A DNA stretch of 59,557 nucleotides, taken from positions 1 to 59,557 of the forward strand of contig JAGWAU010000007.1 of the NCBI GenBank assembly GCA_021296255.1, written 5' to 3'. Each line of letters begins with the position of its first letter. Position 1 is the stretch's first letter. The stretch is from Alphaproteobacteria bacterium. GTDB lineage: Bacteria; Pseudomonadota; Alphaproteobacteria; UBA2966. A program made the position numbers and the translations under genes. The notes under the pieces are model-generated. The model saw only the letters and a list, made by a program, of their open reading frames with translations, did not search any database and had not been told where the DNA came from. Below are positions 70 through 31,716 of this stretch, in pieces.

Positions 70-185
70 GCCTTTAAAAGCGTGTTGGTGACTGGGACGG
101 AGTCCACTTCGCTCGGCTGCTTCCGATGGTCTCGGAACGGGTCGCGCGGGATCGAGATTGCGGGAAGGCGGACGGTAACAGAACG

Positions 186-2246
186 ATGGCTTGCCGACTG
201 GGAATCGACGTTGGCGGGACGTTTACCGATCTCCTTCTGTTCAACGGTGGCACCGGCGAGATTCACCTACTGAAAACGCCGTCGACTCCGCAGGATCAGT
301 CCGTCGGCATTCTCACGGGCGTTCAGGATCTCATTTCCCAGACCAAAGTGCGGCCTGCCGACATCCAGGGACTTCTCCATGGCACGACGGTATCGACCAA
401 CATCGTGCTGGAGGAAAAAGGAGCCAAGGTTGGCCTCCTGGTGACGGAGAACTTCGAACAGATACTTCATCTGGCGCGCTCTCAGACTCCCGGCCCCCTC
501 GCCGGTTGGATCGTCATGCAAAAGCCGGATCCCTTGGCCGACCTCGAACTGACGCGGGGGGTCAAGGAGCGCACGAACGCGCGGGGCGACATCGTGACAC
601 CGATGGACGAGGCGCACGCCCGAACCATGATCCAGGAGCTGGTAGACGGCGGCGTCGAGTCGATCACGGTGTCGCTGCTGCATTCTTATGCCAACCCGGC
701 CCACGAACAGCGGTTGAAGGCGCTCATCCGGGACGCTGCGGGCGACATCCCGGTGTCGCTCTCTTCCGAGATCCTGCCCGAGTTCCGCGAATACGAACGC
801 ACGCTCGTCACCGTAATGAATGCCTACGTGGGCCCCAGCATGCGCCGCTATCTCAGCCGTTTCGAGGAGAAACTACGCGGCGTCGAGTTCTCGCCCCACG
901 TCAACATCGTGCGCTCGGACGGCGGGCTGATGAGTGTCGCCCGTGCTTCCCAGTCTCCGGTGCACACGATGCTGTCCGGACCGGCCGGCGGCGTGTCGGG
1001 GGCGGCCTTTCTTGCCGGCCTCGCGGGCCATCCCAAAGCCCTCGGGTTCGATATGGGCGGGACGTCGACCGACGTCTCTCTAATCCAGGAAGGCAAGCCG
1101 ACGATCTCGCGCCAGACGAGCCTTGGCTACTATCCGATCAAGGTTCCTTCCGTCGAAGTGCACAGCGTCGGTGCCGGTGGGGGATCGATCGCTCACGTGC
1201 CGATGACGGGGGCACTACGGGTCGGCCCGGAAAGTGCGGGCGCCGTGCCCGGCCCGGCATGCTATGGACGCGGCGGTGACTCCCCGACGGTCACCGACGC
1301 CAATGTGGTGCTCGGCCGCCTGCCTCCCAGCTTGTTGGGGGGCGATATGGCCCTTGACGCCAAGGCGGCCGAGGAGGCGGTCGGGAAGATTGGCCGGGCG
1401 CTGGGGCTTGATCTCCATCAAGCGGCTCAGGGCATCCTCGACATCGTCAACGAGAACATGTTCGGCGCGTTGCGCCTGGTCACGGTGCAAAAAGGTCTCG
1501 ATCCCCGTGATTTCGCACTGGTGGCCTTCGGCGGCGCCGGTCCGTTGCACGGGAATGCAATGGCCGCGCTCGCCGGTTGCTACCCCGTGATTGTACCCCC
1601 AACGCCCGGCGTGCTGTCTGCGCTCGGCTTCCTGTACTCCGACGTCAAGAACGAATTCGCGCAAACGTTCGTGCGCAATATCGACGATATCGACCCTGGC
1701 CAAGTCAACGACATCCTGACACGGCTGGGGCGCGAGGCCCGAACCTGGCTTCAGGAGGAGGACATCTCGGAGCAGAACCAGGAGCTCCAGTACGAGGCGG
1801 ACGTGCGTTACTTCCGCCAAGGCTACGAATTTTCGCTCGAAGTCGACCCGGGATCGTTGATGAACGGGGGCTTGCACGACCTGGAGATGCGCTTCGGAAC
1901 GGCGCACGAAAGGCTTTACGGTTTCAAGCTCGAACAGGCCGTGGAGCTTGTCAACCTACGGGCTGTCGGTACGGGCCGCGTGGACAAGGTTGAGTTTCCG
2001 GAGTTTCCACTTGAGGATCGCGATCCGTCCGCGGCCATTCTTGAGCAGCACGGGGTCTATTTCGGCGGCAATGCCGAGCAGACCGTTATCTATGACCGCA
2101 GCAAGCTCCGTGCGGGCAACCGGATCACGGGTCCCGCCGTTGTGACCCAGAAGGATTCGACCACCATCATTCACCCTGGCCATACCGGGGAGGTCGATCA
2201 GTATCTCAACATCCTGCTTCGCCCTGACAACGACCAATTACATTGA
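186..2246 (+). CDS. hyuA: hydantoinase/oxoprolinase subunit A (HyuA), copy 1
   Basis: This is an ATP-dependent hydantoinase/5-oxoprolinase family A subunit of 686 residues, a usual length. Members use ATP to open (or, in acetone/acetophenone carboxylases, to carboxylate) small substrates together with a B subunit. The first ATPase-fold phosphate loop is at residues 6-15 (GIDVGGTFTD) and the second at about 287-298 (GFDMGGTSTDVS). The glycine-rich GAGGGSIA and PGPACYGRGG motifs follow, then the C-terminal domain. The frame is open back to 126, but the ATG at 186 puts GIDVGG at the normal distance from the start. The gene ends 13 bases before its B-subunit partner at 2260. The substrate (hydantoin, oxoproline, N-methylhydantoin or another cyclic amide) cannot be told from the sequence. 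Confidence 0.9.
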   Translation: MACRLGIDVGGTFTDLLLFNGGTGEIHLLKTPSTPQDQSVGILTGVQDLISQTKVRPADIQGLLHGTTVSTNIVLEEKGAKVGLLVTENFEQILHLARSQTPGPLAGWIVMQKPDPLADLELTRGVKERTNARGDIVTPMDEAHARTMIQELVDGGVESITVSLLHSYANPAHEQRLKALIRDAAGDIPVSLSSEILPEFREYERTLVTVMNAYVGPSMRRYLSRFEEKLRGVEFSPHVNIVRSDGGLMSVARASQSPVHTMLSGPAGGVSGAAFLAGLAGHPKALGFDMGGTSTDVSLIQEGKPTISRQTSLGYYPIKVPSVEVHSVGAGGGSIAHVPMTGALRVGPESAGAVPGPACYGRGGDSPTVTDANVVLGRLPPSLLGGDMALDAKAAEEAVGKIGRALGLDLHQAAQGILDIVNENMFGALRLVTVQKGLDPRDFALVAFGGAGPLHGNAMAALAGCYPVIVPPTPGVLSALGFLYSDVKNEFAQTFVRNIDDIDPGQVNDILTRLGREARTWLQEEDISEQNQELQYEADVRYFRQGYEFSLEVDPGSLMNGGLHDLEMRFGTAHERLYGFKLEQAVELVNLRAVGTGRVDKVEFPEFPLEDRDPSAAILEQHGVYFGGNAEQTVIYDRSKLRAGNRITGPAVVTQKDSTTIIHPGHTGEVDQYLNILLRPDNDQLH

Positions 2247-2259
2247 TGGACCCGAACTC

Positions 2260-4566
2260 ATGACAGACCTCAACCCGCCGAGCAAATCGGTTTCCCTGGA
2301 TGACCTTCTGAGAGCCAACAAGGACCAGTTCGACCAGCTCTTCGCCACGCAAGTGAGGGAAGTGGGGCTGGTCGACGTCAGTCACCGCCCCGCGACAGAG
2401 GAGGATCTCATGTCGCCGAGTATGCGGGCGTGGCACGACGGCGACGGCGAAGATGTAACGGCGTTTCTCAACACGCGTTTTGGGTCCGATTGGTCGTCAG
2501 AGGTCGTCGAGCACAAGGTTGAGCGCGGCGCGGTGACCGTTCTTTGCAAACTGACCGTCGACGGCGTCTCGAAGATGCAGTTCGGCTCGGCTCGTGCGAA
2601 CGGCGACGAAGGCAAGGCCTTGCGGCACGCGACCAACCAGGCCCTGAAAGCCTGTGCCGCGATGTTTGCTGAAGCGGCTGTGCCCGTGGGTCCGCCTGCG
2701 GCGCCTACGCCGGAGGAACGGCTGGAGGGGCAGGGACGGGAGATGCTCGACGCCCCGGCACCCCGTGCGCCGCGCCCGGCGGAGCGTCCCGGCACGCTTG
2801 ACACGATCACGCTCGACCTCATTGAGAACGCCCTCCGCAACGCCCGTCACGAAATGGACGCGGTGCTGTTCCGCTCGGCCATGTCCCCGGTTATCCGGGA
2901 ACAGCACGATGAATTTCCGATGATCACGGATGGCAAGGGGCGCATGATCGTGGGGCAGTTCGGCTCCTATATCCCGGAGATGTTGAAGGAGCAGACCTTC
3001 CGGCTCCTCCCCGGCGACGTGATTCTGCAGAGCGATCCGTTCAAGTGCGGCGGCGCCATCAGCCACATCAACGACTGGATGGTGCTGGTGCCGATCTTCT
3101 ACGAGAACGAGGTCATCGGCTTCAGTTCGATGTTCGGGCACATGATGGACGTGGGGGGGCCCGTGCCCGGCAGCATGCCGACGGCGGCGACTTCGGTGTT
3201 CGGCGAAGGCCTGCGCATTCCACCCATTAAGATCTATGACGGCGGCGCGCTCAATAAGGGTGCGCTCGACCTCATCATGAATAACACCCGCACCCCGGAG
3301 ATGAACTTCAGCGATCTCATGGCGATCATCGCGGGCTGCAGGACTGGCGAGAAGCGCGTGATCGAGATCTGCGATCGCTTCGGCAAGGATATCTACCGCC
3401 AAGCATGCGAGGCGCTGCTGGAGCGCACCAATCGCGCTATGCACCAGCTAATCGTGCAGAATCTGCCTGAGGAGCCACAGTCGTTCGAGGATTACGTGGA
3501 CGACGACGGTCTTGGCAACGGGCCTTTCAAGCTCAAGCTGACCGTCTGGCGCGAGGGCGAGCACGCTTATTTCGATTGGACGGGCACATCGCCCCAGGCC
3601 CCGGGGCCGATCAACTTCTACCTCCACGAAGGCATGTTCAAGATGTTCATCGGGGTCTACATGATCATGGTGTTCGACCCCCAAATCCTGTTCAACGATG
3701 GTTTCTACGACCTGATCCACGTGACCCTGCCCAAGGGCTCGCTTGTACATCCCAACTTCCCGGCACCTCTCGGCTGTCGGACCCATGCGCTGTCCCGCCA
3801 GTTCGACGTTCTGGGCGGTGCGCTCAGCAAGAAGGCTCCTGAAATGGCGACCGCTGCGGGCTACGGATCGAGTCCGCATTTCCTGTACTCGGGCACCGAC
3901 GCAGACGGCCGCCAGTTCCAGCTCATGGAGATTCTCTACGGCGGTATTCCCGGCCGGCCGGTTGGCGACGGCATGGACGGGCATTCCTGGTGGCCGCTGT
4001 TCGAGAACATCCCCAGCGAATACCTCGAGTGCTACTACCCGATGCTGATCGAGAGCTACGGCAGCATCTCGGATACCGGCGGCGCGGGCCTCCATCGCGG
4101 CGGCAACGGTGTGGAGAAAGTCTACCTGTTGCTCGAAGAGGGAGAGATCTCCATCCACGACGATCGGCATGAATCGCAGCCCTGGGGCATCTTGGGCGGG
4201 GCGCCCGGCGCCTGCTCGGAGAAGTGGTTGGTACGCAAGGACGGGACGCGCGAGCCGCTCCCCTCCAAGGTCGACAATGTGAAGGTGCGAAACGGAGACC
4301 GCATCGTCTTCCGTACGGCGGGCGGCGGTGGATGGGGGGATGCGCTCGAGCGTGAATCCGTGAAGGTCCGTAACGATGTCGCGCGCGGTCTGCTGTCGCG
4401 TGGGGCGGCGCGGGAGAGCTACGGCGTTGTCGTCTCGGAGAACTTCGATGTCGACGAGACGGCGACGCGGGATTTGCGAGAAACCATGCGGGCTGGACGG
4501 CCGCCGTTGCCCTTGTTCGATTTTGGCAGGCAACCGTCGTGGGGCGGAACCACCGCTTCTGCGTAG
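2260..4566 (+). CDS. hyuB: hydantoinase/oxoprolinase subunit B (HyuB), copy 1, with N-terminal accessory domain
   Basis: This is the B subunit partner of the upstream hyuA, 768 residues, longer than the usual 520-600. The HyuB domain runs from about residue 179 (GTLDTITLDLIENALRNAR) to near the end, with the family motifs SAMSPVIREQHD, GGAISHINDW and TAGGGGWGD. Ahead of it lie about 65 residues of unclear nature and a compact alpha/beta-looking domain (about 66-140, including FGSDWSSEVVEH and VTVLCKLTVDG). A Pro/Ala-rich linker (141-178) then leads into HyuB. The same small domain is found at the C-terminus of the second HyuB (21964-24150). Its function is unknown; the size and strand pattern recall dsRBD or Rad52-like folds, which is inference only. 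The following gene starts 108 bases downstream. Confidence 0.9.
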   Translation: MTDLNPPSKSVSLDDLLRANKDQFDQLFATQVREVGLVDVSHRPATEEDLMSPSMRAWHDGDGEDVTAFLNTRFGSDWSSEVVEHKVERGAVTVLCKLTVDGVSKMQFGSARANGDEGKALRHATNQALKACAAMFAEAAVPVGPPAAPTPEERLEGQGREMLDAPAPRAPRPAERPGTLDTITLDLIENALRNARHEMDAVLFRSAMSPVIREQHDEFPMITDGKGRMIVGQFGSYIPEMLKEQTFRLLPGDVILQSDPFKCGGAISHINDWMVLVPIFYENEVIGFSSMFGHMMDVGGPVPGSMPTAATSVFGEGLRIPPIKIYDGGALNKGALDLIMNNTRTPEMNFSDLMAIIAGCRTGEKRVIEICDRFGKDIYRQACEALLERTNRAMHQLIVQNLPEEPQSFEDYVDDDGLGNGPFKLKLTVWREGEHAYFDWTGTSPQAPGPINFYLHEGMFKMFIGVYMIMVFDPQILFNDGFYDLIHVTLPKGSLVHPNFPAPLGCRTHALSRQFDVLGGALSKKAPEMATAAGYGSSPHFLYSGTDADGRQFQLMEILYGGIPGRPVGDGMDGHSWWPLFENIPSEYLECYYPMLIESYGSISDTGGAGLHRGGNGVEKVYLLLEEGEISIHDDRHESQPWGILGGAPGACSEKWLVRKDGTREPLPSKVDNVKVRNGDRIVFRTAGGGGWGDALERESVKVRNDVARGLLSRGAARESYGVVVSENFDVDETATRDLRETMRAGRPPLPLFDFGRQPSWGGTTASA

Positions 4567-7508: not shown

Positions 7509-8627
7509 ATGGCGGAGCACGACGTCGTCCTTGAACACGTCGACAAGACCTTTCCGGGCGGTGTCCGGGCGGTCATCGACTTCAACGCCGAGATTGAGCA
7601 TGGCGAATTCGTTGCCATGCTGGGGCCGAGCGGCTGCGGCAAGACCACGACCCTTCGCATGATCGGCGGGCTCGAGGAGGCGACCTCGGGGAGGATCTAT
7701 ATCGCCGGGCAGGACGTCACCGACCTGCCGCCGTCGCATCGGGACACCGCGATGATGTTCCAGAGCTTTGCGCTCTTTCCTCACCGGACCGTTCTCCAGA
7801 ATGTTGAGTTCAGCCTAAAGATGAAAGGCATGGAAAAGGTTGAGCGAGCGCGTCGCGTCTGGGAAATGGTCGAAATGGTCGGACTCGGGGAACTCGCGCA
7901 TCGCCGGCCGCACGACCTCAGCGGTGGACAGCAGCAGCGTGTGGCGCTCGCCCGGGCGCTGATTGGGCGGCCGACGGTGCTGCTGCTCGACGAGCCCTTG
8001 GGCGCGCTCGACTTCAATCTGCGTCAGACCATGATGGTGGAGCTCAAGAAGATCCAGCGCGAGCTTGGCATCACCTTCATCATGGTCACGCACTCCCAGC
8101 AGGAAGCGCTGTCGATGGCCGACAAGGTCATCGTCATGAGCGACGCGGTGATCCAGCAGACCGGCACGTCTCGGGAAATCCACGAGCATCCACGCACCAA
8201 GTTCGTAGCCGAGTTCATCGGCAACAACAATCTGCTTAAAGGCACGATCAAGTCGCGCAGCGGCTCGGTGGTGTTCGTGGAGTCGGAGGACAATCTCTTC
8301 TACGTGCGCATTCCCGAAACCATGCCGCACGTGGAGATCGGCAAGGAGACCTACTTCTCGGTCCGTGCCGATCTCATGCACACCGGAGATCACCCGGATA
8401 TGGCCAACCGGGTCGAGGGGTCCTATGTGACCACGGAGTTCATGGGTTCCCTCGAGACCAACGTGTTCGAGGTGGGGTCGGACACCATCGTGCATGTGGA
8501 GCAGCACCGAAGCGTCGCGGACCATGTTTACCAGATGGGTGAAAAGGAGACAATCTGCTGGCCGGCGGACGCCGGCGTGCTATTGGAGACCGTGACCGGC
8601 GTGGCGGAGCGGGCGGAGGCGGAATAG
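7509..8627 (+). CDS. ABC transporter ATP-binding protein, polyamine/opine (PotA) type
   Basis: This 372-residue ATPase would energise import of a small organic cation or amino-acid-like compound. It shows Walker A GPSGCGKTT (residues 39-47), a Q-loop (MMFQSFALFPH), signature LSGGQQQR, Walker B VLLLDEPLGALD and the switch histidine in VTHSQQEA. A C-terminal TOBE-type domain follows from about residue 235. No permease is adjacent. The matching two permeases and periplasmic protein are on the opposite strand at 15185-18409, beyond the aconitase X genes, and are the obvious partners. The start ATG is 17 bases after the SPFH stop, so co-transcription is likely. Confidence 0.88.
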   Translation: MAEHDVVLEHVDKTFPGGVRAVIDFNAEIEHGEFVAMLGPSGCGKTTTLRMIGGLEEATSGRIYIAGQDVTDLPPSHRDTAMMFQSFALFPHRTVLQNVEFSLKMKGMEKVERARRVWEMVEMVGLGELAHRRPHDLSGGQQQRVALARALIGRPTVLLLDEPLGALDFNLRQTMMVELKKIQRELGITFIMVTHSQQEALSMADKVIVMSDAVIQQTGTSREIHEHPRTKFVAEFIGNNNLLKGTIKSRSGSVVFVESEDNLFYVRIPETMPHVEIGKETYFSVRADLMHTGDHPDMANRVEGSYVTTEFMGSLETNVFEVGSDTIVHVEQHRSVADHVYQMGEKETICWPADAGVLLETVTGVAERAEAE

Positions 8628-8726: not shown

Positions 8727-10004
8727 ATGAATCTTACCGATGCCGACAAGCGGAAACTCGACGGCGGCGAAGGGCCGGCCGTTCAGCATGCCATGGAGCA
8801 CTTGCTCAAGATGGGCGAGGCCTTTGACGCCGAGGAGATGGTGGACCTTCACACGGTGCATGTGTTCTCGGACTACCGCACGGTCGGCGATGGCGGAGTT
8901 AACTTCTACGAGAACCTGGTCGACCTGGGTGGCCACATTTCGCTCCCGTCCTCATGTGAACCCATGTCCATGGATCGTAATCACAATGACCAGTTCGACT
9001 GGCCGGAAGGGTACGAGGAAGGTCAGCAGAAGATTGTCGACGCCCTCGCGACGCTCGGCGTTCAGCCCACCTTCTCCTGCACTCACTATCTGAACGCCAA
9101 CGTACCCAAATTCCAGTCGAACATGGCCTGGGTCGAAGGTAACGCAACGGGGTTCGCCAATACCGTGATCGGGGCCCGCGGCAACCGGGAGGACGCGGTT
9201 ACCAGTCCGCTGGCCGGTATCGCCCGACGCATCCCCAAGTACGGCATGCTGGACCCCAAGAACCGGACCGGTGATTGCTTGGTTGAGATCGATCCGAACC
9301 TCATAGAGCGCATCGGCGGTGACGGGCGGCGCACGGCGGACTACGAGGCGCTCGGCGCTGTCATCGGCGACTTCGCGTACGACCGTATCCCGGTGGTGAC
9401 GGGCCTGCCCGACTACATGCAGAACGAAGAACTGAAGGCCTTGGTGACCGCTTGTTCGCCGGCCATGACGACGACGTTGATGCTGCTCGTCGGCATCAGC
9501 CCGGAGGCGCGAACCCTTGAAGAGGCATTTGGCGGCAAGGTACCGAAAGATGTAGACACCATTCAGGTCACCGAAGATGACCTGCGGGAAATGTATGGCC
9601 AGCTTGAGCAGACAACCAAGGAGGATGTCGACATCGTCATCTCCGGCTGTCCCTTCAAGACCTTGCAGGAGGTCCAAGAGCTGACCGAACAGCTTGGAGA
9701 GCAGAAGGTGGCGGACGGCGTCAAGTTCTACATATTCACAGACCGCATCACCTTCAACATGGCGAAGGACATGGGACTGGTGGAGAGGATCGAGGCCGCT
9801 GGCGCCCTTCTCACCACCGATACCTGTAGCTGGTGCATGCCTGTCGAGACCATGTTCGGCCCCGACAAGGTCATCGCCTCCGACAGCATGAAGATGCGAC
9901 GCCTGCTGGCCGGCGACGGCAAGCCGACGTGGCGCTACGGCACCCTCACCGACGTGGTGGATGCCGCCGTCACAGGTAAGTTCAAGCCGAGCCGTTGGAA
10001 TTAG
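8727..10004 (+). CDS. aconitase X large (catalytic) subunit, copy 1
   Basis: This 425-residue protein is the DUF521/aconitase X catalytic subunit. Bacterial two-subunit members include cis-3-hydroxy-L-proline dehydratase (product delta1-pyrroline-2-carboxylate), while archaeal relatives dehydrate mevalonate 5-phosphate. Visible candidate Fe-S/active-site cysteines are in SSCEPMSMD, SGCPFKT and DTCSWCMP, and the conserved EGNATGFANTVIGARGNRED stretch is intact. A GGGAGG ribosome site precedes ATG 8727. The small subunit follows at 10044, and the pair is duplicated at 10520-12254. A proline-like substrate fits the neighbouring N-demethylase-type flavoprotein, but the exact substrate is inferred. 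Confidence 0.85.
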   Translation: MNLTDADKRKLDGGEGPAVQHAMEHLLKMGEAFDAEEMVDLHTVHVFSDYRTVGDGGVNFYENLVDLGGHISLPSSCEPMSMDRNHNDQFDWPEGYEEGQQKIVDALATLGVQPTFSCTHYLNANVPKFQSNMAWVEGNATGFANTVIGARGNREDAVTSPLAGIARRIPKYGMLDPKNRTGDCLVEIDPNLIERIGGDGRRTADYEALGAVIGDFAYDRIPVVTGLPDYMQNEELKALVTACSPAMTTTLMLLVGISPEARTLEEAFGGKVPKDVDTIQVTEDDLREMYGQLEQTTKEDVDIVISGCPFKTLQEVQELTEQLGEQKVADGVKFYIFTDRITFNMAKDMGLVERIEAAGALLTTDTCSWCMPVETMFGPDKVIASDSMKMRRLLAGDGKPTWRYGTLTDVVDAAVTGKFKPSRWN

Positions 10005-10043: not shown

Positions 10044-10472
10044 ATGAGTGAAACGATCACCCTGCACGGACATCCCGTCAGCAGGGGCGTCGGCGAGGGC
10101 GAAGCCTTGGTCTGCGATAAGCCGTTGAGCTTTATCGCCGTCGGCATCAGCAACGAGGAAGGAATCGTGCGTATCGATAAGCACCCTCTGAACGGCCAGT
10201 CGATCGCCGGCAAGGTGCTGATTTACGACACCGACATCTTTTCGACCGGTGGTGCCCTCAGCATGTACACCAAGAAGACGATCTACAAGACGGCACCCGC
10301 TGCCGTTATCTGGCGCAAAGCCCATAACATCGGGGCCGGCGGCACCATCTACGCCGGTGTCCCCTCGATGGACCAGATCGAGGAAGGGTTGCCCTGGGAT
10401 TTGATCAGCACTGGCGACTGGGTGAAGGTCGACTCCGAACAAGGCATCGTCGAAGTGACGAAAAAGTCCTAG
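10044..10472 (+). CDS. aconitase X small (swivel) subunit, copy 1
   Basis: This 142-residue DUF126 swivel-domain protein forms the second half of the two-subunit aconitase X. It carries the small-subunit motifs ITLHGHPVSRGVGEGEALV near the N-terminus, VLIYDTDIFSTGG in the middle and WVKVDSEQGIVEVTKKS at the end. GAGGAAC lies just ahead of the start. The gene is 39 bases downstream of the large subunit and belongs to the same operon. Its duplicate at 11826-12254 has the same length. Confidence 0.87.
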   Translation: MSETITLHGHPVSRGVGEGEALVCDKPLSFIAVGISNEEGIVRIDKHPLNGQSIAGKVLIYDTDIFSTGGALSMYTKKTIYKTAPAAVIWRKAHNIGAGGTIYAGVPSMDQIEEGLPWDLISTGDWVKVDSEQGIVEVTKKS

Positions 10473-18582: not shown

Positions 18583-20034
18583 GTGAGCATACTGATCAAG
18601 AATGGTCGTGTCGTCACGGCGTCGGACGACTATCACGCCGACATCTTCGTCAGCGACGAGACCGTCGATGTGATCGGCCGTGACCTCGTGATCGAGGCGG
18701 ACACCGTCATCGACGCGTCCGGGAAGCTCGTGATCCCCGGCGGCGTCGATCCCCACACGCACATGGAGATGCCGTTCGGCGGCACGCATACTTCGGATAC
18801 ATTCGAGACCGGCACGAAGGCGGCAGCGTTCGGCGGCACCACTTGTATCATCGACTTCGCCATACAGTTCAAAGGTGAATCGACCGTCGAGGCGCTCGAC
18901 AAATGGCATGCCAAGGCCGCCGGGCAGGCCTCCGTCGACTACAGCTTTCACATGATCATCACCGACATGCCGGAGCACCGGACGCCGGAGATGCGCCGCC
19001 TTTCGGACGAAGGGGTGACCAGCTACAAGCTGTTCATGGCGTATCCCGGCGTGTTGCTGTCCGATGACGGCACGATTTTCCGCGCGATGCGCAAGGCGGG
19101 GGAAGACGGGACGCTCGTTTGCATGCATGCGGAGAACGGCGTCGTCATCGATGAGCTGGTCAAAATTGCGTTATCGGAAGGCCATGTCGAGCCCAAGTAC
19201 CACGCTTTGACGCGCCCCACCCGATTGGAGGCGGAGGGTGTACACCGGGCTCTCTCCATCGCCGAGGTAGCCCGCGCGCCGGTCTATATCGTGCACCTCA
19301 GCAGCTACGACGCGCTTCAGGAAATCCGCTTGGCGCAGGCGCGCGGCGTGATGGCGCACGCGGAGACCTGCCCGCAGTATCTCTTGCTCGACGTCTCGGC
19401 CTACGACGAGGCGGGGTTTGACGGTTCCAAGTTCGTGTTGACGCCGCCGCTTCGCGAGAAATGGAATCAGGAGGAACTGTGGCGTGGATTGCGCGGAGGC
19501 TCGCTCCATGTGATCTCCACCGACCACTGCCCGTTCTGCGTGAAGGAGCAGAAGGAACTCGGCCGCGACGACTTCAGCAAGATCCCCAACGGCGGCCCGG
19601 GCGTCGAGAACCGTATGAGCCTGATCTACCACTATGGTGTCGGCAAGGGGTACATCGACCTCAACCGTTTCGTCGAGTTGACCTCTACGTCGCCCGCCAA
19701 GATCTTCGGCCTGTTCCCGAAGAAGGGGACCATCGCGGTCGGCAGCGACGCCGACCTCGTCATCTTCGATCCCGAGCACGAAGAGAACATCAGCTACTAC
19801 AACCCCCGGACCCACCACATGAACATCGACTACACCGCTTACGAGGGTTTCGCCGTAAAGGGGTTCACGGAAACCGTGTTGTCACGGGGCAAGCTGGTGA
19901 TCGACAAAGGTCAATATGTGGGCCGCCCGGGTTATGGTCGGTTCGTCAAGCGCGGTCCCTACGGCGGTATCTACAAGCCCGAAGCGGCCGGTAACATCAC
20001 CACGCCCGCCGCCAGGCGCCTCGCTGCGGAATAG
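18583..20034 (+). CDS. hydA: dihydropyrimidinase / D-hydantoinase (cyclic amidohydrolase)
   Basis: This 483-residue metal-dependent amidohydrolase would open cyclic diamides such as hydantoins or dihydropyrimidines. Its metal centre is complete: HTH at residues 58-60 in GVDPHTHMEM, the carboxylated lysine in TSYKLFMAYPG (K149), H182 in CMHAENG, H238 in IVHLSS and the aspartate in STDHCPF. The length is normal for the family. GTG 18583, with GGGGAGG eight bases upstream, is preferred over an upstream TTG. It stands alone on its strand, divergent from the transporter operon and near two HyuA/HyuB systems. The cell can thus open such rings both without ATP and, potentially, with ATP. Confidence 0.9.
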   Translation: MSILIKNGRVVTASDDYHADIFVSDETVDVIGRDLVIEADTVIDASGKLVIPGGVDPHTHMEMPFGGTHTSDTFETGTKAAAFGGTTCIIDFAIQFKGESTVEALDKWHAKAAGQASVDYSFHMIITDMPEHRTPEMRRLSDEGVTSYKLFMAYPGVLLSDDGTIFRAMRKAGEDGTLVCMHAENGVVIDELVKIALSEGHVEPKYHALTRPTRLEAEGVHRALSIAEVARAPVYIVHLSSYDALQEIRLAQARGVMAHAETCPQYLLLDVSAYDEAGFDGSKFVLTPPLREKWNQEELWRGLRGGSLHVISTDHCPFCVKEQKELGRDDFSKIPNGGPGVENRMSLIYHYGVGKGYIDLNRFVELTSTSPAKIFGLFPKKGTIAVGSDADLVIFDPEHEENISYYNPRTHHMNIDYTAYEGFAVKGFTETVLSRGKLVIDKGQYVGRPGYGRFVKRGPYGGIYKPEAAGNITTPAARRLAAE

Positions 20035-21963: not shown

Positions 21964-24150
21964 TTATGCCGTTCGCAAGTCCTGGGAGCGTTCGGTCGCC
22001 TCCAATAGGGCGGCAGCGCATCGGCGGAGGCTGTCGTCGGCGGCCGCTTCGAACTGCTGGCCGACGGAGAGGCCGTTGCCCCCGTTGGTACGACCGGTTT
22101 CACGGGCACGGGACCCGTTGGCCTTGACCTCGCCGACCACGGTGACGCCACCGCCGTTCCGTTCGTGGCTCAATATTTCAAAGCTCCAGGCGGAACCGAA
22201 CGTCTCGTGCAGCCGACGGACGATCTGCGAGAGGTCGGGCTCTGCCCGTGGGGGCGCCGGAGAAAGTGAAGCAGCCGGCAGTGGTTTGGGCGTCTCGACG
22301 GGGGCCGGTGCGGGACCTGGCGTCGGTTCGAGTGGCTGTGCCCCAGATGCTACCGCGGATGCCAAAGCAGCTTCGGCGGCGCCGGGCGATGTCCGCATGT
22401 CGCGGCGCAGGGCTTCCGTCTCCGGCTCATTGACCGTTTCCGATGCCGGATCGATAATCACGCCGTAGGCCTGTCGGGCGTGCTCCAAGGTGCAGAAGTC
22501 GTCGAGGACGTCCTCCAGCACCTCGGCCGGGGGCCGGTCGAGCGGATCGCCGTATCCGCCGCCGCACGGACCATAGAATACGTGCACGTCTCCGGCTTGC
22601 AGCCGCATTCCGGAGAACTTCGCCGGCATCTCTCTGCGCTCGCTCGGATTGCCGATATTGAACAGCTCGACGCGCCCCGTGGCGCCTTCATGACCGCCGA
22701 AAATGCCCCAGGGCACGTCCTCGTGACGCTCGTTCTCGTGGGTGATGAAGCCATCCGTCAGCATGCGCTGTTCCTTGACGCATCCGATGCCGCCGCGGTA
22801 CCGGCCTGCGCCGGGCATGACGTCGTCACGCAACTCGTAGCGATCGCAGATCATGGGCAGATGGACGGCCAGGTCCTCGAGCGGGTTGTTGCGCGTGTTG
22901 GCCATCAAGTTGTCGATGCTGTCGGGACCGTCGGAGCGCGGACGCCCGCCATAGGAACCTTCGTTGACCTCCAGGAACACCCAGTAGTCGCCGCCGGGCC
23001 GGACGCCGGAGTAGGCGACGAAAGAGAGACTTGCGGAGCTTCCCGCGATGATGTCATCGGGCAGGACGGGTGCCAGCGCCTTATAGATCAGGTCGATCAC
23101 CCGGTTGATTTGGGCGAAGCGCGCTTCCGCGGCAGCGGGGAACTCGGGGTTGTAGATCGATCCCTTTGGTGCAAAGACGTTGATCGGCCGGAACGACCCC
23201 TGATTGGAGGGCACCTTGATCTCCGACGTCTCGGCATCCAGGAGGAGCGATCGAATGGCGCAGAAGCAAGCCACCTTCGTCGATCCCTCGAAAGGAACGT
23301 TGAAACCGGTCTCGACCTGGTCGGCGGAGCCCGTGAGATCGATCTCGATGCCGTCGCCCTTCACCCGCACGCAGACCTTGATGGGCAGGCGTACTCCGCG
23401 GTTCTTGCCGTCGTCGTCCAAGAAACCCTCCGCATGGTATTCGCCATCGGGGATGGCCGCGATGCGCTGGCGCAGGACGCGTTCGGTATAGTCCATGAGC
23501 TGGCGGGTGGCGGTGAGAACCGTGTCCTTGCCGTAGCGATCGAGGAGTTCCCCGAAGCGGCGTACACCCAGGCGCGCCGAAGCGATCTGGGCTTCCAGGT
23601 CGGCTTGCAGTTCGTTCGCCGCGCGGCTGTTGCGGCCGATGTATTCCCATAGGGCGTCGTTACGCTGGCCCTTCTCATAGAGCTTGGTGCCGGCGAACAG
23701 CATGCCTTCGGCATAGACGTCCGGAATGTCGATGATCAGCCCCGGCGTGGCCGCCCCGATGTCGAGGTGGTGGGCGGTGTTGGCGGCGAATCCGACATGC
23801 TCACCTTTGTAGAAGATGGGGATGACGATGGCGATGTCGGGCGAGTGGCTGGCGCCGTGGTAGGGATGGTTGTGGATCACCGCGTCGCCGTCGTTCCACA
23901 CGCCACCCTGCAGCGTCTCGGCGATACCTTCCAGGTAACCGGGGATGGAACCGATGTGAAGCGGCGTCGACTCCGATTCGCAAAGCGTGTTGAACTCCGT
24001 GTCGAATAGGCCGGCGCCAAGGTCCTGCGATTCCCGGATGATCGAGGAGAACGACATGCGGAAGAGAATGTGCCCCATCTCCTCCGCGATCGTATCGAGT
24101 GCGCCGCTGATCACCTGCAGCGTGATGGGATCGAGTTCTTGGTCAGGCAT
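21964..24150 (-). CDS. hyuB: hydantoinase/oxoprolinase subunit B (HyuB), copy 2, with C-terminal accessory domain
   Basis: This 728-residue B subunit has the HyuB domain from residue 1 to about 570 (LDPITLQVISGALDTIAEEM, NHPYHGASHSPD, PCGGGYGDPLDRPP). A Pro/Ala-rich linker (about 590-639) follows. The 89-residue terminal domain (640-728; bases 22233-21967) resembles the N-terminal domain of HyuB copy 1: both have FGSxWSxE, H then G-VTV, a run of G/N and a final helix with CAA. It lies 36 bases after its HyuA partner and is the last enzyme gene of the isochorismatase-like/HyuA/HyuB operon. It is the same class as N-methylhydantoinase and acetophenone carboxylase subunits; the substrate is unknown. 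Confidence 0.9.
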   Translation of the reverse strand: MPDQELDPITLQVISGALDTIAEEMGHILFRMSFSSIIRESQDLGAGLFDTEFNTLCESESTPLHIGSIPGYLEGIAETLQGGVWNDGDAVIHNHPYHGASHSPDIAIVIPIFYKGEHVGFAANTAHHLDIGAATPGLIIDIPDVYAEGMLFAGTKLYEKGQRNDALWEYIGRNSRAANELQADLEAQIASARLGVRRFGELLDRYGKDTVLTATRQLMDYTERVLRQRIAAIPDGEYHAEGFLDDDGKNRGVRLPIKVCVRVKGDGIEIDLTGSADQVETGFNVPFEGSTKVACFCAIRSLLLDAETSEIKVPSNQGSFRPINVFAPKGSIYNPEFPAAAEARFAQINRVIDLIYKALAPVLPDDIIAGSSASLSFVAYSGVRPGGDYWVFLEVNEGSYGGRPRSDGPDSIDNLMANTRNNPLEDLAVHLPMICDRYELRDDVMPGAGRYRGGIGCVKEQRMLTDGFITHENERHEDVPWGIFGGHEGATGRVELFNIGNPSERREMPAKFSGMRLQAGDVHVFYGPCGGGYGDPLDRPPAEVLEDVLDDFCTLEHARQAYGVIIDPASETVNEPETEALRRDMRTSPGAAEAALASAVASGAQPLEPTPGPAPAPVETPKPLPAASLSPAPPRAEPDLSQIVRRLHETFGSAWSFEILSHERNGGGVTVVGEVKANGSRARETGRTNGGNGLSVGQQFEAAADDSLRRCAAALLEATERSQDLRTA

Positions 24151-24186: not shown

Positions 24187-26262
24187 CTAATTCGGGCCAC
24201 GAATGTGGAGGTTGCCGTATTCCGTCACGTCCGCCTGGTAGTCGGGCGGCACCACGACCGTTGAGTTGTGCTGGATGATCACGGCGGGGCCGGGAACGTT
24301 GTGCCCGGCCCTGAGTTCTCCGCGGTCGTAGCGCGGCGTTTCCAACGTCCGGCCGTCGTCGAATGTCGTCTCGCGGTCGTAAAGCAAGGCGGCATCGATT
24401 CCCACGCCATTGGCTTCCTCGAGTCGGGCGACTTTCAGCGGGGTAACGTTCTCGAGGCCGATCACCCTCACGGTGATCAGCTCCACCTCGCCGTCATCGA
24501 AGGCGTAGCCGTAATCGAGGCGATGCTGCTGGTGGAAGCTCGCGATGATGTTCTTGACGTTGTCCGTCGTAACGTCGCCGTCGGGGATATCCGCGCGCAG
24601 CTCGAAGCCCTGGCCGTGGTACCGGCACTCGGCAAATCTGAGAAACTTCTGACGTTCGGACGGTACGCCGTCATTTTCGAGATCGGACCGGCACTCGGCG
24701 ACCAGATCATTGACGAGTGCGTCGAACCGCCGCGCCGCTTCGCCGTCGATCCTTGTCAGCGACGTCACCAGGGATCGGGCGTGCTCGTACTGCATGTCGG
24801 TTTCCAGAAGCCCCATGGCCGCCGTGATCCCCGGCGCGACAGGCACGATGATGTCCTTGGCCGAGACCGCCTGTGCCAAAGCGACGCCGTGCAACGGACC
24901 GGCCCCTCCGAATGGAACGAGCGAGAACTCCCGCGGATCGACGCCCCGTGCCACGGAATTGGAGCGGATCGCGAGCGCCATGTTGGAATTGATGACCTTG
25001 ATGATCCCGAGAGCCGCATCGGTCAGGGAGAGTCCCAGCGGCCCTGCAATCTTCGTCTCAATGGCCCGTCTTGCGAGACCCGGGTCGATGGGCAGATCGC
25101 CGCCCAGCAGCTTGTCTGCGTCGAGCCGGCCCAGCACGACTTGGGCGTCCGTAACGGTAGGCTCCGTACCTCCACGACCATAGCAGGCGGGGCCGGGGTC
25201 GGCACCCGCGGAGCGCGGGCCGACGTGGAACCCACCTGCCGAATCAATGTAGGCGATGGATCCGCCTCCGGCGCCAATGGTCACCAGGTCGATCATGGGA
25301 ATCAAGATCGGGTGGCCGCTGACGTAGGAGTCGCGCGGGTTCATGATCTTGATGCGCCCGTCGGGTATGGTGCTGATATCGGCGGAGGTGCCGCCGATAT
25401 CCACCGTGATCAGGTTGTCGCTCCCCACGAGCTGGCCCTCCGACCGCCCGCCGATGACGCCACCGGCCGGCCCCGACATCAGCATGCTGACGGCGCGCTT
25501 GGAACACGTTTCCACGGTCGAGATGCCACCGTTCGATTGGATGACGCGAAGGTTGGCACGGAATCCATTCTCCGCCAGTCGCCGCTGAAGGCGCGTCAAA
25601 TAGACTGTCGTTTTCGGTCCGATGAAGGCATTCATCGCCGCCGTCGAGAACCGCTCGAATTCCCGGATCACGTTGACGACCTCGGAAGACGTACAGACGA
25701 AGGCATCGTGCATTTCGCGTTCGACGATGGCCTTGGCCCGCTTTTCGTGGGCATCGTTGAGGAACGAGAACATGAATCCGATGATCACCGAGGCGATGCC
25801 GCGCTTTTTGAAGCGTGCAATCGCCTCCATGACCTCGCTCTCATGGAGCGGCACCTCGACGCGGCCGTCCGGTGGCAGGATTCGTTCGGTCACCGGCACT
25901 CGGTTACGGCGCTTGACGAGGACCCGGTTTTGCCATGGCACCTCGAAATGGAGTGAGAAGTTGTGCGGCCGCTTGTGTCGGCCGATGTGGAGAATGTCGC
26001 GGTAATTTCGCGTCGTGATCATGCCGACGTCGGCACCGTCGTGCTCGATGGTGATGTTGGTCGCGACCGTGGTGCCGTGGACGATGAGGTCCACGTCGGA
26101 AGGCGAAATACCCCCGATTTCACAGAGTTCCTCGAGTCCTTTGAGGACGCCCTCCGATTGATCCTGCGGTGTGCTGACGACCTTGTGGAAGAAGACGCCG
26201 TGGTTGGCCTCGAGCACGAGGTCCGTGTTCGTTCCGCCGACGTCGACACCGATTCTGGCCAT
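24187..26262 (-). CDS. hyuA: hydantoinase/oxoprolinase subunit A (HyuA), copy 2
   Basis: This 691-residue A subunit has the phosphate loop RIGVDVGGTNTDLVL at residues 3-17, HGTTVATN, the central DIGGTSADIS and GAGGGSIAYID, PGPACYGRGG and the C-terminal PAVIIQHNSTVVVPP. The region HIGRHKRPHNF and the following PWQNR are typical of the acetone/acetophenone-carboxylase and N-methylhydantoinase side of the family. The gene lies 16 bases after the isochorismatase-like gene and 36 bases before hyuB, a three-gene unit. It is clearly divergent from copy 1 at 186-2246, so the two systems probably take different substrates. Confidence 0.9.
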   Translation of the reverse strand: MARIGVDVGGTNTDLVLEANHGVFFHKVVSTPQDQSEGVLKGLEELCEIGGISPSDVDLIVHGTTVATNITIEHDGADVGMITTRNYRDILHIGRHKRPHNFSLHFEVPWQNRVLVKRRNRVPVTERILPPDGRVEVPLHESEVMEAIARFKKRGIASVIIGFMFSFLNDAHEKRAKAIVEREMHDAFVCTSSEVVNVIREFERFSTAAMNAFIGPKTTVYLTRLQRRLAENGFRANLRVIQSNGGISTVETCSKRAVSMLMSGPAGGVIGGRSEGQLVGSDNLITVDIGGTSADISTIPDGRIKIMNPRDSYVSGHPILIPMIDLVTIGAGGGSIAYIDSAGGFHVGPRSAGADPGPACYGRGGTEPTVTDAQVVLGRLDADKLLGGDLPIDPGLARRAIETKIAGPLGLSLTDAALGIIKVINSNMALAIRSNSVARGVDPREFSLVPFGGAGPLHGVALAQAVSAKDIIVPVAPGITAAMGLLETDMQYEHARSLVTSLTRIDGEAARRFDALVNDLVAECRSDLENDGVPSERQKFLRFAECRYHGQGFELRADIPDGDVTTDNVKNIIASFHQQHRLDYGYAFDDGEVELITVRVIGLENVTPLKVARLEEANGVGIDAALLYDRETTFDDGRTLETPRYDRGELRAGHNVPGPAVIIQHNSTVVVPPDYQADVTEYGNLHIRGPN

Positions 26263-26278
26263 ATCCGGCGATACCTTT

Positions 26279-26998
26279 TCAGCCGGTCAGGCGCTCGTCC
26301 GGAAAGCGGGCGTTCGCCACGTCGCGCGCCTCCAGAGCGTCGAGGTATTCCAGAACACGGTCCAAAGGCTCTACATCTCCGAACTTGGCGTCGATGTCGA
26401 ACAGGTTCCACTCGACGACACCGGCGACTCGGTCGCCCACCGCCTCGTGCACGACGATGGGACGAAATCCCTCGGCAATGGCGTCCTCCGTCGTGTGGCG
26501 AACGCATCCCGCCATGGTGACGCCGGTGATGATCACCGTGTCGACCCCCAAGGAACGGAGGAATCCGGTGAGAAAGGTGCCGTGGAAGGCGCTGGCGCGC
26601 TTCTTGTAGATCACCTGCTCGCCTGGCTCGGGCGCGATGCGGTCGTCGATCTCGCAGTCCTTCGACCCCAGCCGGAGCAACTCCGCCGGGATTTTATGGT
26701 GCCACAGTCCCATGTCCGAATTCGGCCCGTCCGTTACCGCATAGGCCGTCGACGTGTACACCACGGGAACGTTCTTCGCGCGGGAGGCCTTCAACAGTTC
26801 CCGCACCGCTGGAATGATCACGTCCATGTTCTCGCAGGAGAACGCATTGCCGGGGCGTGTCCAGGCATTGGCGAGATCGATGTTGATCAGGGCGGGACGT
26901 TTGCCAAACCCGATTCGCCGTTGAAACCCGCGGTTTTGGTATATTTCCGAATCTGCGGAGAAGATCTTTTGCAGCGCCTCTTGCAGTTCGTCGCTCAT
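26279..26998 (-). CDS. isochorismatase-family cysteine hydrolase, N-carbamoylsarcosine amidase-like
   Basis: This 239-residue hydrolase has a likely catalytic triad D41 (NIDLANAW), K132 (YKKRASAF) and C165 (TMAGCVRHT), preceded by the non-proline cis-peptide region GVTMAGC. The KKRASAFHGT and GCVRHTTEDA patterns match N-carbamoylsarcosine amidases, which release ammonia and CO2 from N-carbamoylsarcosine to give sarcosine. It begins the operon followed by hyuA and hyuB copy 2. In creatinine breakdown an ATP-dependent N-methylhydantoinase of this kind feeds N-carbamoylsarcosine to such an amidase, so the gene pairing itself supports the call. A GGGAGG site precedes ATG 26998. Confidence 0.85.
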   Translation of the reverse strand: MSDELQEALQKIFSADSEIYQNRGFQRRIGFGKRPALINIDLANAWTRPGNAFSCENMDVIIPAVRELLKASRAKNVPVVYTSTAYAVTDGPNSDMGLWHHKIPAELLRLGSKDCEIDDRIAPEPGEQVIYKKRASAFHGTFLTGFLRSLGVDTVIITGVTMAGCVRHTTEDAIAEGFRPIVVHEAVGDRVAGVVEWNLFDIDAKFGDVEPLDRVLEYLDALEARDVANARFPDERLTG

Positions 26999-28592: not shown

Positions 28593-30185
28593 TTACGTCG
28601 CTGACCGCTCGTCCGGAGCGCCGTACCCTCCGCCGCCGCCCGTCTCGCCGATGAGGATGTCGCCGCGGTCGAGCGTGTGGCTGGCTTTCGAGCCCACGGC
28701 GATCTCCTCGCCGTTCCGCTTCAACAGACGTGTCCGGGCGCTCGCGCCCGGTTTCCCACCGAACGCGCCGTCCGACGGGAAGCGGTAGCGATCCGAGTAA
28801 TGGGCCAGAGTCACGTCGTCGGCCAGGATCTCATAACGCCGGCGGAGTCCCTCCCCACCCCGCGAGCGTCCGGCGCCTCCCGAGCCGGAGCGAATGGCGT
28901 ATTCGGTCACTCGGAAGAAGTCGTACCTCTGGTCGAGGGCTTCAACGGGGATGTTGCTGCAATTCGAGAGCGGGCCGTCCACCCCGTCGCAGCCGTGGGA
29001 CCGAGGTCCCGCCCCGTAGCCGCCGCCGAAGATCTCGATGTAGATGTTGTGGCTGCCGTTCGCGAAGCGGCTCAAGCAAAGTGAATAGGGGGTACCGAAC
29101 CCCGTCGCGATAACCCGATCGGGGATGGCCTTGGCGAGGGCCTTGATCACTGCGTCGAACGTTCGCGAAGCGGTGACCGATCGGCCTCGAACCGGAACCG
29201 GAGGTTCCGGGTTGAGGATCGAGCCGCGCGGCGCGGAGACGCAGATGGGCCGGGTCAGGCCATCGTTGAACGGAACGTCGGGGGAACTCGTCACTGTCTT
29301 GACGGCGGTATATACCGCGGCGAGCGTAGACGCATATGGACAGTTCAGATTGAGCAGGATCTGCTGCGCACTGCCCGCGAGGTCGACCGAGATTTCATCC
29401 TCCGACACGGAGACCGTGGCCTTGATGGGCAAAGGGTCTTCGTTAACGCCGTCGTCATCGACGGCATCCTCGCCGACGTAGACGCCGTCGGGCACGTCCG
29501 CAAGGGCCGCGCGCATCCTGCGCTCCGAGTAGTCGAGATGAGCATCCATGACAGACGTTACGGTGTCCGCGCTATAGCGCGTACAAAGTTGACGGACACG
29601 TCCGGCGCCGACGGCATTGGCGGCAAACTGTGCGTTGAAGTCTCCGATCGTCAATTCCGGGACGCGGATGTTGGCCGTAATCAGTCGTTCCAAAGATCCT
29701 CCGTTCCAGTCATGCGCCATGTTGTAGCGCGACGGCGGGATGACGAGTCCTTCCTGGTGTATGTCCGTGGCATTCGGGTTCATGCCCGGCGCGCCGCCGC
29801 CGAGGTCAAGGTGGTGGGCGACGCTGCCGCTGAACCCGATCAGGGATTCTTCGAATAAGATCGGGGAGAATATGTACACGTCGGGCAGATGCTGACCCCC
29901 CTCGAAAGGGCTGTTGTTGATGTAGAAGTCGCCTTCATCCAGCTCGTCGGGGGGCACGACGGCGGCGCAGGCTTTGAAAGTTTCGCCGATGGGACCGAGC
30001 TGTAAGGGGATCAGCTCGGCTTGCGCCACGACTCTCCCGCGGCGGTCTAGGATGGCCGCCGATCCGTCCCTGGCCTCGCGTAGAATTGTTGAATAGGCCG
30101 AACGGATGAGCTTTGCGCCCATCTCGCGGGCCGACGCGATCAATCCCTGGCTGATGACGGCCTGATCGATTGGATCAACCTTCAC
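28593..30185 (-). CDS. hyuB: orphan hydantoinase/oxoprolinase subunit B (HyuB), copy 3
   Basis: This 530-residue HyuB of standard length has no terminal extension and ends in the family motif GGGGGYGAPDERSAT. Other HyuB signatures are REARDGSAAILD, YINNSPFEGGQHLPD and FGGGYGAGPRSHG. GTG 30185 with an upstream GAGGAT is preferred over the open frame reaching 30518, whose extra residues look non-coding and which runs over the start of the divergent gene. No HyuA lies next to it; the nearest is copy 2, about 4 kb away and separated by a + strand gene. It may share a HyuA or have a distinct role. Confidence 0.85.
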   Translation of the reverse strand: MKVDPIDQAVISQGLIASAREMGAKLIRSAYSTILREARDGSAAILDRRGRVVAQAELIPLQLGPIGETFKACAAVVPPDELDEGDFYINNSPFEGGQHLPDVYIFSPILFEESLIGFSGSVAHHLDLGGGAPGMNPNATDIHQEGLVIPPSRYNMAHDWNGGSLERLITANIRVPELTIGDFNAQFAANAVGAGRVRQLCTRYSADTVTSVMDAHLDYSERRMRAALADVPDGVYVGEDAVDDDGVNEDPLPIKATVSVSEDEISVDLAGSAQQILLNLNCPYASTLAAVYTAVKTVTSSPDVPFNDGLTRPICVSAPRGSILNPEPPVPVRGRSVTASRTFDAVIKALAKAIPDRVIATGFGTPYSLCLSRFANGSHNIYIEIFGGGYGAGPRSHGCDGVDGPLSNCSNIPVEALDQRYDFFRVTEYAIRSGSGGAGRSRGGEGLRRRYEILADDVTLAHYSDRYRFPSDGAFGGKPGASARTRLLKRNGEEIAVGSKASHTLDRGDILIGETGGGGGYGAPDERSAT

Positions 30186-30333
30186 GTCCCGATCCTCACA
30201 CGATTGGAATGACCGAGGTTGATATATCGATTGCGTCCGAAACCGTCCATCGGGGGTACGCACGAGAGCGGGTTGCTGCGATACTCGAACGGCAGTTGCC
30301 TCCGCACATTCAAGACGTTCGTGGGATAGCAGG

Positions 30334-31716
30334 ATGCCGGTGGAAGCCCGATTAGCGGAATATGTCGCGACTCTCCGCTTCGAGGAGATCGACGAGACGG
30401 CGCGCGCGGCTTTCGGCCGTATGTTGCTCGACACGGTGGGAGTGGCCGTCGCCGGGTTTCGCGAGCCTACATGCCGGCCGGTCGCGACCGCGTTTTGCGC
30501 CTGGGACCGGGAGGGCACGGCATCCGTGGTGGGCTCGGAGCGGCGGGTTTCACCTGCCGCGGCGGCCTTTGTGAACGGGGTCTACGCGCATTGGTGCGAA
30601 TGGGACGATTCGCACGATCCCTCGCACGTGCACGCCAGCGCGGTTATCTTTCCGGCGCTTCTCGCGGCTTTCGAAGCCTCCGGCGGAGCGGCGGACGGTG
30701 AGGAGTTCGTGGCCGCGACGGTCGCGGCGTTCGACACTGCCTGCCGGATAGGCAAGTTTCTCAAGCCGTACACGCACCGGGGTTGGATGCCGACCGGCAC
30801 GGGCGGTGCCGTGGGCGCGGCAGCCGGCGCGGCACGCCTCCTCGGCCTCGAAGCGGCGGGCATCCGATCGGCGATGGGAATTGCGGCGGCGGGCTCGGGG
30901 CTTTCGCGCCAGGCGCTGGCGGACCTCGTGAACGGCAAGAACATCTTGGCCGGCGCCGCGGCGAAGGTCGGTGTGGAATCGGCGATCCTCGCACGGGCAG
31001 GTGTCGCGGGGGCGCCCAACTTCCTCACCGGTTCCTACGGCCTTCAGGCTTTGTACGCCGATGGCCGGGGCGACGCCACCGAGATTCTGGAGGGTCTCGG
31101 GGCGGCGTTCAGCATCAACGAAGTCAGCGTGAAGCCTTATCCGTGCTGCCGGTCGGCGCACCCGGCGCTCGACTTGGTTTTCGAGATGCTGCGCGAGGCG
31201 CCCGACGTGTCGGCCGAGATCGACTCGATCCGATTCGAGGTGCCGCGGGGCGTATATGAGCGGGTGGGCAAGCCGTTCCAGGCAGGCGATAACCCCAGGA
31301 TGGCCGCGCTGTTCAGCGTGCCATACACCGTTGCCGTGGCGTTACGAAAGGGCGTGGTGGCGCCGGAAGACTTCGATCCGCAAGCCGTCCGCGGGGTTTC
31401 GCCTGACATCGCGCATCTCATCGACAACATCTTGGTCGAAGCGGTGCCCGTGCCCAACGAGGTCGCCGATCCCATCGTGCCGACCAAGGCCATCTTCCGG
31501 CTTGCGGACGGCGCGGAAATCGAACGCACGGCCGATACGGTCAAGGGCGCGCCCGACCGCCCCATGACCGCGGTGGAGGAAGAGCGGAAACTGTCGGTCG
31601 CCGTGGGGGGGACGCTATTTCACAAAGATATCGCAAGCCTCGCGAGGACCGCCCGCCGCATTCCCGCTACCGGTGTTGCGGAGTTCCTCAACTGCGTGCG
31701 GCGCCCGCAGCTCTAA
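30334..31716 (+). CDS. MmgE/PrpD family protein (2-methylcitrate dehydratase-like), copy 1
   Basis: This 460-residue protein has the MmgE/PrpD all-helical N-terminal fold plus alpha/beta domain. Family motifs are LLDTVGVAVAG, the EWDDSHDPSHVHASAVIFPALLA-like substrate pocket (split here for length), GTGGAVGAAAGAARLLGL and KPYPCCRSAHPALD. Members dehydrate 2-methylcitrate, decarboxylate itaconate (cis-aconitate decarboxylase) or act on iminodisuccinate; this genomic context matches none of these clearly. It is divergent from the orphan hyuB and overlaps the convergent M20 peptidase gene by four bases. Confidence 0.85.
   Translation: MPVEARLAEYVATLRFEEIDETARAAFGRMLLDTVGVAVAGFREPTCRPVATAFCAWDREGTASVVGSERRVSPAAAAFVNGVYAHWCEWDDSHDPSHVHASAVIFPALLAAFEASGGAADGEEFVAATVAAFDTACRIGKFLKPYTHRGWMPTGTGGAVGAAAGAARLLGLEAAGIRSAMGIAAAGSGLSRQALADLVNGKNILAGAAAKVGVESAILARAGVAGAPNFLTGSYGLQALYADGRGDATEILEGLGAAFSINEVSVKPYPCCRSAHPALDLVFEMLREAPDVSAEIDSIRFEVPRGVYERVGKPFQAGDNPRMAALFSVPYTVAVALRKGVVAPEDFDPQAVRGVSPDIAHLIDNILVEAVPVPNEVADPIVPTKAIFRLADGAEIERTADTVKGAPDRPMTAVEEERKLSVAVGGTLFHKDIASLARTARRIPATGVAEFLNCVRRPQL

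Follow-up and report, generated by a model that had tools for sequence, protein, structure and literature searches.

We conclude that the small accessory module found near the N-terminus of one hydantoinase B subunit (HyuB1) and at the C-terminus of another (HyuB2), both encoded in the 59,557-nucleotide stretch of alphaproteobacterial DNA analysed here (the window), is homologous to Rad52 annealing proteins of a phage type, whichever way the transfer went. Its ancestry in the Rad52 superfamily is in our view hardly in doubt. For most copies of the module we infer that DNA annealing is probably not its function, and for the inference that it has been reused for oligomerisation or docking we consider the scales about level, no oligomer or partner binding having been observed.

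Both host proteins belong to the HyuB family, passing the cut-off of Pfam Hydantoinase_B with E-values of 1e-145 (HyuB1) and 7e-155 (HyuB2), and both have the His-Asp-His metal ligands. The Asp-His-Asp-His metal residues of CapB (D41, H99, D102 and H124), which were assigned as metal ligands and whose mutation to alanine abolishes caprolactamase activity (PMC8453981), have positional equivalents in the aligned HyuB1 and HyuB2 sequences. The substrate of the HyuAB enzymes is not established, and hydantoin, N-methylhydantoin, a pyrimidine-derived compound or a lactam are all possible.

Table 1. Coordinates of the hydantoinase genes, the Rad52-like modules and their surroundings in the window, and of related loci in other genomes.
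Feature	Position	Strand	Remarks
HyuA1, ATP-binding subunit, partner of HyuB1	126..2246	+	Open reading frame; best NCBIfam match caprolactamase alpha, E 3e-157, under cut-off
HyuB1, 768 aa	2260..4566	+	N-terminal helix-like motif, Rad52-like domain, Pro/Ala linker, Hydantoinase_B core aa 181-694
HyuB1 N-terminal helix-like motif SLDDLLxxNKxQFDxxF, aa 12-33	2293..2358	+	Conserved, 68-77% identity across relatives
Rad52-like domain of HyuB1, aa 66-140	2455..2679	+	AlphaFold2 pLDDT 89.1; RAD52 structural match Z 9.8
HyuB1 Pro/Ala-rich linker to core, aa 141-178	2680..2793	+	16-27% identity between relatives, dN ~1
SPFH/Band_7 (flotillin-like) protein, 938 aa	4675..7491	+	Pfam Band_7 E 5e-12; N-terminal hydrophobic segment; immediately 3' of HyuB1
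PotA-like ABC transporter ATPase	7509..8627	+	Same cluster as HyuB1
Dihydropyrimidinase/D-hydantoinase	18583..20034	+	Pathway context; TIGR02033, cut-off passed
HyuB2, 728 aa	21964..24150	-	Hydantoinase_B core aa 7-536, Pro/Ala linker, C-terminal Rad52-like domain
Rad52-like domain of HyuB2, aa 640-727	21970..22233	-	AlphaFold2 pLDDT 88.3; RAD52 Z 11.2
HyuA2, partner of HyuB2	24187..26262	-	Best NCBIfam match caprolactamase alpha, E 8e-174, under cut-off
Isochorismatase-family hydrolase (RutB/biuret-amidohydrolase-like)	26279..26998	-	Adjoins HyuA2; Pfam Isochorismatase E 2e-30
HyuB3, without domain	28593..30518	-	Sole Pfam match Hydantoinase_B, aa 115-635; serves as negative control inside the window
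Degenerate HyuA1/HyuB1 pairs, one relative genus	L031:7703-11940, L059:8103-12457, L060:7357-11657		
Protein of ~107 aa, start MCxLCGVLGGRGHWTE	L032:5349-5669, L060:5317-5640, L054:12249-12581		

The similarity between the two domains is well above chance. They share 32% identity (BLASTP, E 6e-7), a profile-profile comparison gives significant mutual similarity (E 2.2e-12), and a profile of 11 HyuB1-type domains built without HyuB2 detects the latter at E 1.5e-11. This agrees with the first-pass annotation, made from the DNA letters alone, which had placed a domain at residues 66-140 of HyuB1 and a counterpart at the C-terminus of HyuB2; the motifs it quoted are found at the residues it named, and predicted secondary structure spans residues 66-138 (bases 2455-2673) and 640-727 (bases 22233-21970), respectively. 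It was likewise right in describing Pro/Ala-rich linkers, which diverge fast, between both domains and the enzyme, and in stating that HyuB3 lacks the module, since only Hydantoinase_B is matched there and none of the three copies found in a search of the own genome lies in HyuB3. Its suggestion of a mobile and independently folding module is furthermore borne out by the mutual profile similarity, by two confident structural models, by its presence at the N- or the C-terminus of HyuB as well as in a free-standing form, and by conservation between fast-evolving linkers. The third copy, the N-terminal motif of HyuB1, the link to phages, the operon context and any mechanism were absent from that annotation.

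The third copy, found in the search of the own genome, is a free 176-aa protein without any Pfam match on contig C27 of the same genome, where the gene of an isochorismatase-family hydrolase lies directly 5' of it. The same arrangement of free copy and isochorismatase-type hydrolase is repeated in the genomes G006 (on contig C104, which also bears HyuB1) and G021. The free proteins start with a helix-like motif, e.g. FDEMLxxxRRQxDxLY, which recalls the one that opens HyuB1, and two of four test sequences outscore all 3000 shuffles; a kinship between these motifs is at this level suggestive only. When the genome was searched by sequence with the HyuB1 motif itself, no further match turned up. 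The notion that the N-terminal helix is an encapsulation peptide marking cargo of a bacterial microcompartment was rejected, since the genome contains no BMC shell protein.

Structure prediction gave neither disorder nor unrelated folds, both segments being modelled confidently by AlphaFold2 (pTM 0.79 for HyuB1) in the same alpha-beta-beta-beta-alpha order, with helices at residues 66-74 and 117-138 and strands at 78-88, 91-100 and 103-112 of HyuB1. It should be mentioned that both models were built from one set of nine sequences and are not mutually independent. Foldseek ranked human RAD52 first for both models, and upon realignment the top nine rows for HyuB1 were Rad52 or Mgm101 structures with Z-scores of 8.3-9.8, as were the top six rows for HyuB2 with Z-scores of 9.8-11.2, the double-stranded RNA-binding domains (dsRBDs) reaching 7.7 and 9.3, respectively. 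RAD52 superposes on the two models with an rmsd of 1.7-1.9 over 75-82 residues (1.9 over 82 for HyuB2). Because the margin of some Rad52 entries over dsRBDs is small for the HyuB2 model, the sequence evidence presented below matters. The elements i-iii common to single-strand annealing proteins (SSAPs), namely an antiparallel three-stranded sheet that alpha3 traverses and an alpha2 that packs against alpha3 (PMC9870868), are present in both predicted HyuB domains. The cap elements iv-v, a beta-hairpin and alpha1, which are variable and usually present (PMC9870868), are not, since there is no sequence equivalent of the human segment before approximately residue 66; the domain is instead preceded by a linker and the separate helix-like motif, a possible stand-in for alpha1, in HyuB1 and by the Pro/Ala linker in HyuB2.

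Against Pfam Rad52_Rad22 (PF04098) the isolated HyuB1 domain scores 19.8 bits (E 8e-4) and the whole protein 14.8, the cut-off of 20.3 not being reached. A profile made of human RAD52 (its sequence verified against the PDB) and five phage proteins, however, matches the domain profile in hhalign with an E-value of 4.7e-9, a probability of 96 and a score of 50.8 over 74 columns, where 200 column-shuffled controls scored 10.3 on average and 20.1 at most and the reversed alignment scored 11.7. The six-sequence profile was needed, since the lone human sequence gave no informative result. Twenty bacterial RNase III dsRBDs in comparison reached a probability of 39 over 34 columns (18 with HyuB1-type domains alone, 0.35 with HyuB2-type). 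The first-pass annotation had wavered between a dsRBD and a Rad52-type fold, and its second guess is the one that stands, the first being disfavored by these profiles as well as by the structural ranks and by the phage match described next. Searches of PDB sequences with the domain alone or its profile returned chance matches only.

When 50,697 phage records were searched by tblastn with the HyuB1 domain, a single kind of match was obtained, to gp62 of the Polaribacter phages P12002L and P12002S, with 38% identity over 97% of the query (E 2e-5). This protein of 221 aa (phrog_37405), annotated as hypothetical, is matched by Pfam Rad52_Rad22 with 28.7 bits, above the cut-off of 20.3, and weakly by Mgm101, and a neighbouring gene has weak similarity to phage exonucleases. 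A gp62 homologue on a viral contig (L133), 47% identical, contains the segments LNLMFGWDWDFEI, GKTITKMQFG and DALKKCAAEIG, which have their counterparts in HyuB1 in LNTRFGSDWSSEV, GVSKMQFG and QALKACAAMF, and the gene after it looks by inspection, without any profile, like a YqaJ-type exonuclease. No relative was found when viral contigs were searched with the HyuB1 domain itself. As a separate matter, gp62 and its viral homologue (L131:4833-5498 and L133:1961-2650) are candidate Rad52-type recombinases, and likely recombinases thus emerge among proteins annotated as hypothetical.

The domain is rare. It was found with the HyuB1 query in 7 of 96 sampled relatives, in a phylum sample in the window's own genome only, and in a scan of genome contigs in seven further alphaproteobacterial or proteobacterial metagenome-assembled genomes (MAGs). 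A scan of the class gave 15 matches among 385 genomes at E 0.01, four of which (G281, G331, G250 and G336, E 0.003-0.01) were weak and not accepted as relatives; the two inspected were a CobW-like open reading frame (G281) and a frame other than the predicted gene (G250). All HyuB1 orthologues, with cores 81-85% identical, have the domain, whereas in the nearest paralogues (54-56% identical) the open frame does not exceed 652 aa and is too short for the N-terminal extension. Both genomes sampled from the same genus lack the domain as well as a close HyuB1. Spread on plasmids was considered and dropped for want of a plasmid match. These counts rest on MAG assemblies (contamination 4.2% in G000) and on few distinct sequences.

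The HyuB1 cluster of the relatives comprises an isochorismatase-type hydrolase, a polysaccharide-deacetylase or PuuE-like protein, a CobW GTPase, a small membrane protein, HyuA1 and HyuB1, and continues with an SPFH protein of ~850-940 aa and a PotA-like ABC ATPase with permeases, while HyuB2 is surrounded by an isochorismatase-type hydrolase, HyuA2, membrane proteins and dihydropyrimidinase. The SPFH gene lies 3' of HyuB1 in every complete neighbourhood examined. In a sample of 289 genomes, eight others have a close orthologue (76-84% identity), giving nine sampled genomes at 76% or more; all of these have a domain-bearing HyuB1, and other SPFH matches do not exceed 39% identity. The SPFH protein may be a membrane scaffold partner. 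In one relative genus (G079, G198 and G291) HyuB has lost the metal ligands and the nucleotide motifs of HyuA are eroded, so that these pairs, going by their residues alone, are likely pseudo-enzymes, and yet domain and SPFH protein are kept; the N-terminal motif is recognisable there too, although the G291 gene as called starts later. Retention of the domain on HyuAB proteins without catalytic residues points to a role other than catalysis.

Three side observations concern the same neighbourhoods. Two membrane proteins without Pfam match (window 20159-20638 and 20738-21796), with about 4 and 10 hydrophobic segments, adjoin HyuB2, and similar proteins are found beside HyuB2 in two relatives. 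In the clusters of relatives, the genes of the PuuE-like deacetylase and the CobW GTPase flank that of the small conserved protein of ~107 aa listed last in Table 1. Window positions 8727-10004, 10044-10472 and 11826-12254 appear by eye, without a profile, to encode an aconitase-X large subunit and two DUF126-type small subunits.

In human Rad52 the ring body is built from the stem, residues 79-156, F79-W84 are a subunit-interface cluster, and the ssDNA groove is lined by R55, Y65, K152, R153 and R156, of which R153 also touches the neighbouring subunit (PMC3823998). The hhGhpGW signature at the start of the stem is retained in the module, with W84 in all 24 copies, F79 as F or Y in all 24 and G80 in 21. 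The KR signature is not, since the K152 position is basic in just 4 of 24 copies (6 of 6 in the Rad52 set), even if the R153 position is so in 20 of 24. Both are basic solely in the three HyuB2-type copies, where they read RR. The R156 position is basic in a single copy out of 24, but this loss is uninformative because the residue is also absent from the gp62-type phage proteins. These observations bear on the notion that the domain has remained able to bind nucleic acid, whether ssDNA or RNA, and links the hydantoinase to it, be it as a moonlighting regulator or as a nucleoid or RNA tether. The direct homology to phage Rad52-type proteins, the RR pairs and the largely conserved basic R153 position speak for it, and a nucleic-acid role left in the HyuB2-type copies is not excluded from their residues. 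However, the cap region with R55 and Y65 is missing from every copy, K152 is lost in 20 of 24, the net charge of the module is 0 to -5 (although several phage Rad52 cores are acidic too), and the catabolic gene setting offers no nucleic-acid partner. On the whole we find it unlikely.

A function as a small-molecule sensor or allosteric domain, which would tune HyuAB activity in response to hydantoin, pyrimidine or nucleotide, also has a certain appeal, as a regulatory function is common among the small alpha/beta accessory domains of metabolic enzymes and as dihydropyrimidinase and a RutB-like hydrolase provide a pathway context. It is made improbable by the facts that the invariant or near-invariant positions of the module are L, W, G, A and V with no conserved polar cluster apparent, that the domain is kept on HyuAB copies predicted to be inactive, and that no Rad52 stem is known to us to act as a ligand sensor.

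The domain might also be a passive passenger, a captured fragment without present function that is tolerated on a flexible linker, and indeed it evolves faster than the enzyme core, with identities to close relatives of 65-72% (41% to the more distant G015) vs 83-89%. We give this very little credence, since in HyuB1 dN of the domain is well below dS for the pairs permitting an estimate, against a dN near 1 in the adjoining linker, and since the domain is kept in three architectures over several families. In HyuB2 the linker is 34-39% identical in close relatives vs 58-61% for the domain. That the module is a dsRBD or another alpha-beta-beta-beta-alpha domain with a merely topological likeness to Rad52 is barely tenable, since despite the dsRBD Z-scores given above the dsRBD profile match is weaker and shorter and the domain directly matches gp62, itself over the Pfam Rad52 cut-off.

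The reading that we prefer is that the module derives from a phage-type Rad52-superfamily SSAP and represents its ring-forming stem (alpha2-beta-beta-beta-alpha3), which would have been split from the DNA-binding cap and tied by flexible linkers to the N-terminus of HyuB1 and the C-terminus of HyuB2, and which is also produced unattached, as a small protein encoded next to an isochorismatase-type hydrolase. As a tag for homo- or hetero-oligomerisation and docking, it may bring the HyuAB complexes together in a single assembly that possibly includes the neighbouring hydrolase and that for HyuAB1 would probably be situated near the SPFH protein encoded alongside. This inferred role is suggested because the stem sits on flexible linkers, at either enzyme end and in several proteins of seemingly one pathway, and because the interface signature is kept while most of the DNA apparatus is lost and the domain outlives catalysis. 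On the other hand, conservation of F, G and W could reflect core packing instead of a subunit interface, and Rad52 multimerisation may use elements that are absent from the module. The more far-reaching idea that the phage-type Rad52 core is a general tag for pathway assembly, with two hydantoinases and a free adaptor joining into a ring or filament of several enzymes in the vicinity of a flotillin-like protein, falls somewhat short of an even chance in our estimation. Among the papers searched, none connects Rad52 and hydantoinase, or hydantoinase and flotillin. DNA annealing is the activity for which Rad52-type folds are known. The fold has been called "probably unique to SSAPs" (PMC9870868), and an assembly tag would, if true, amount to a role for it outside nucleic acids and to a small portable scaffold domain that functions at either terminus.

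Compared with known systems, HyuB1 and HyuB2 share the enzyme core and the His-Asp-His ligands with the HyuB/CapB family of ATP-dependent hydantoinases, caprolactamases and 5-oxoprolinases (PF02538; PDB 6yra and 7hk5), whose members in the PDB align to the HyuB core alone, from about residue 178, and not to the N-terminal module of HyuB1. The dsRBD (PF00035) has the same alpha-beta-beta-beta-alpha topology as the module, but its profile match is weak and partial and its structural Z-scores are lower. The gp62-type phage proteins share the KMQFG and ATxxALKxCA motifs with the module, but at 221-229 aa they retain, unlike the HyuB domain, a cap-like region and KK. With the Rad52 SSAP superfamily at large (PF04098; human RAD52, yeast Mgm101 and phage recombinases) the module has in common a three-stranded sheet that is crossed by alpha3 and fronted by alpha2, as well as the hydrophobic FG..W signature, and differs in that it lacks the beta-hairpin and cap, that its KR DNA signature is mostly broken and that it is found on or beside catabolic enzymes. 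Such a capless stem on hydantoinases, with the DNA signature mostly gone, would represent a natural separation of multimerisation from DNA binding.
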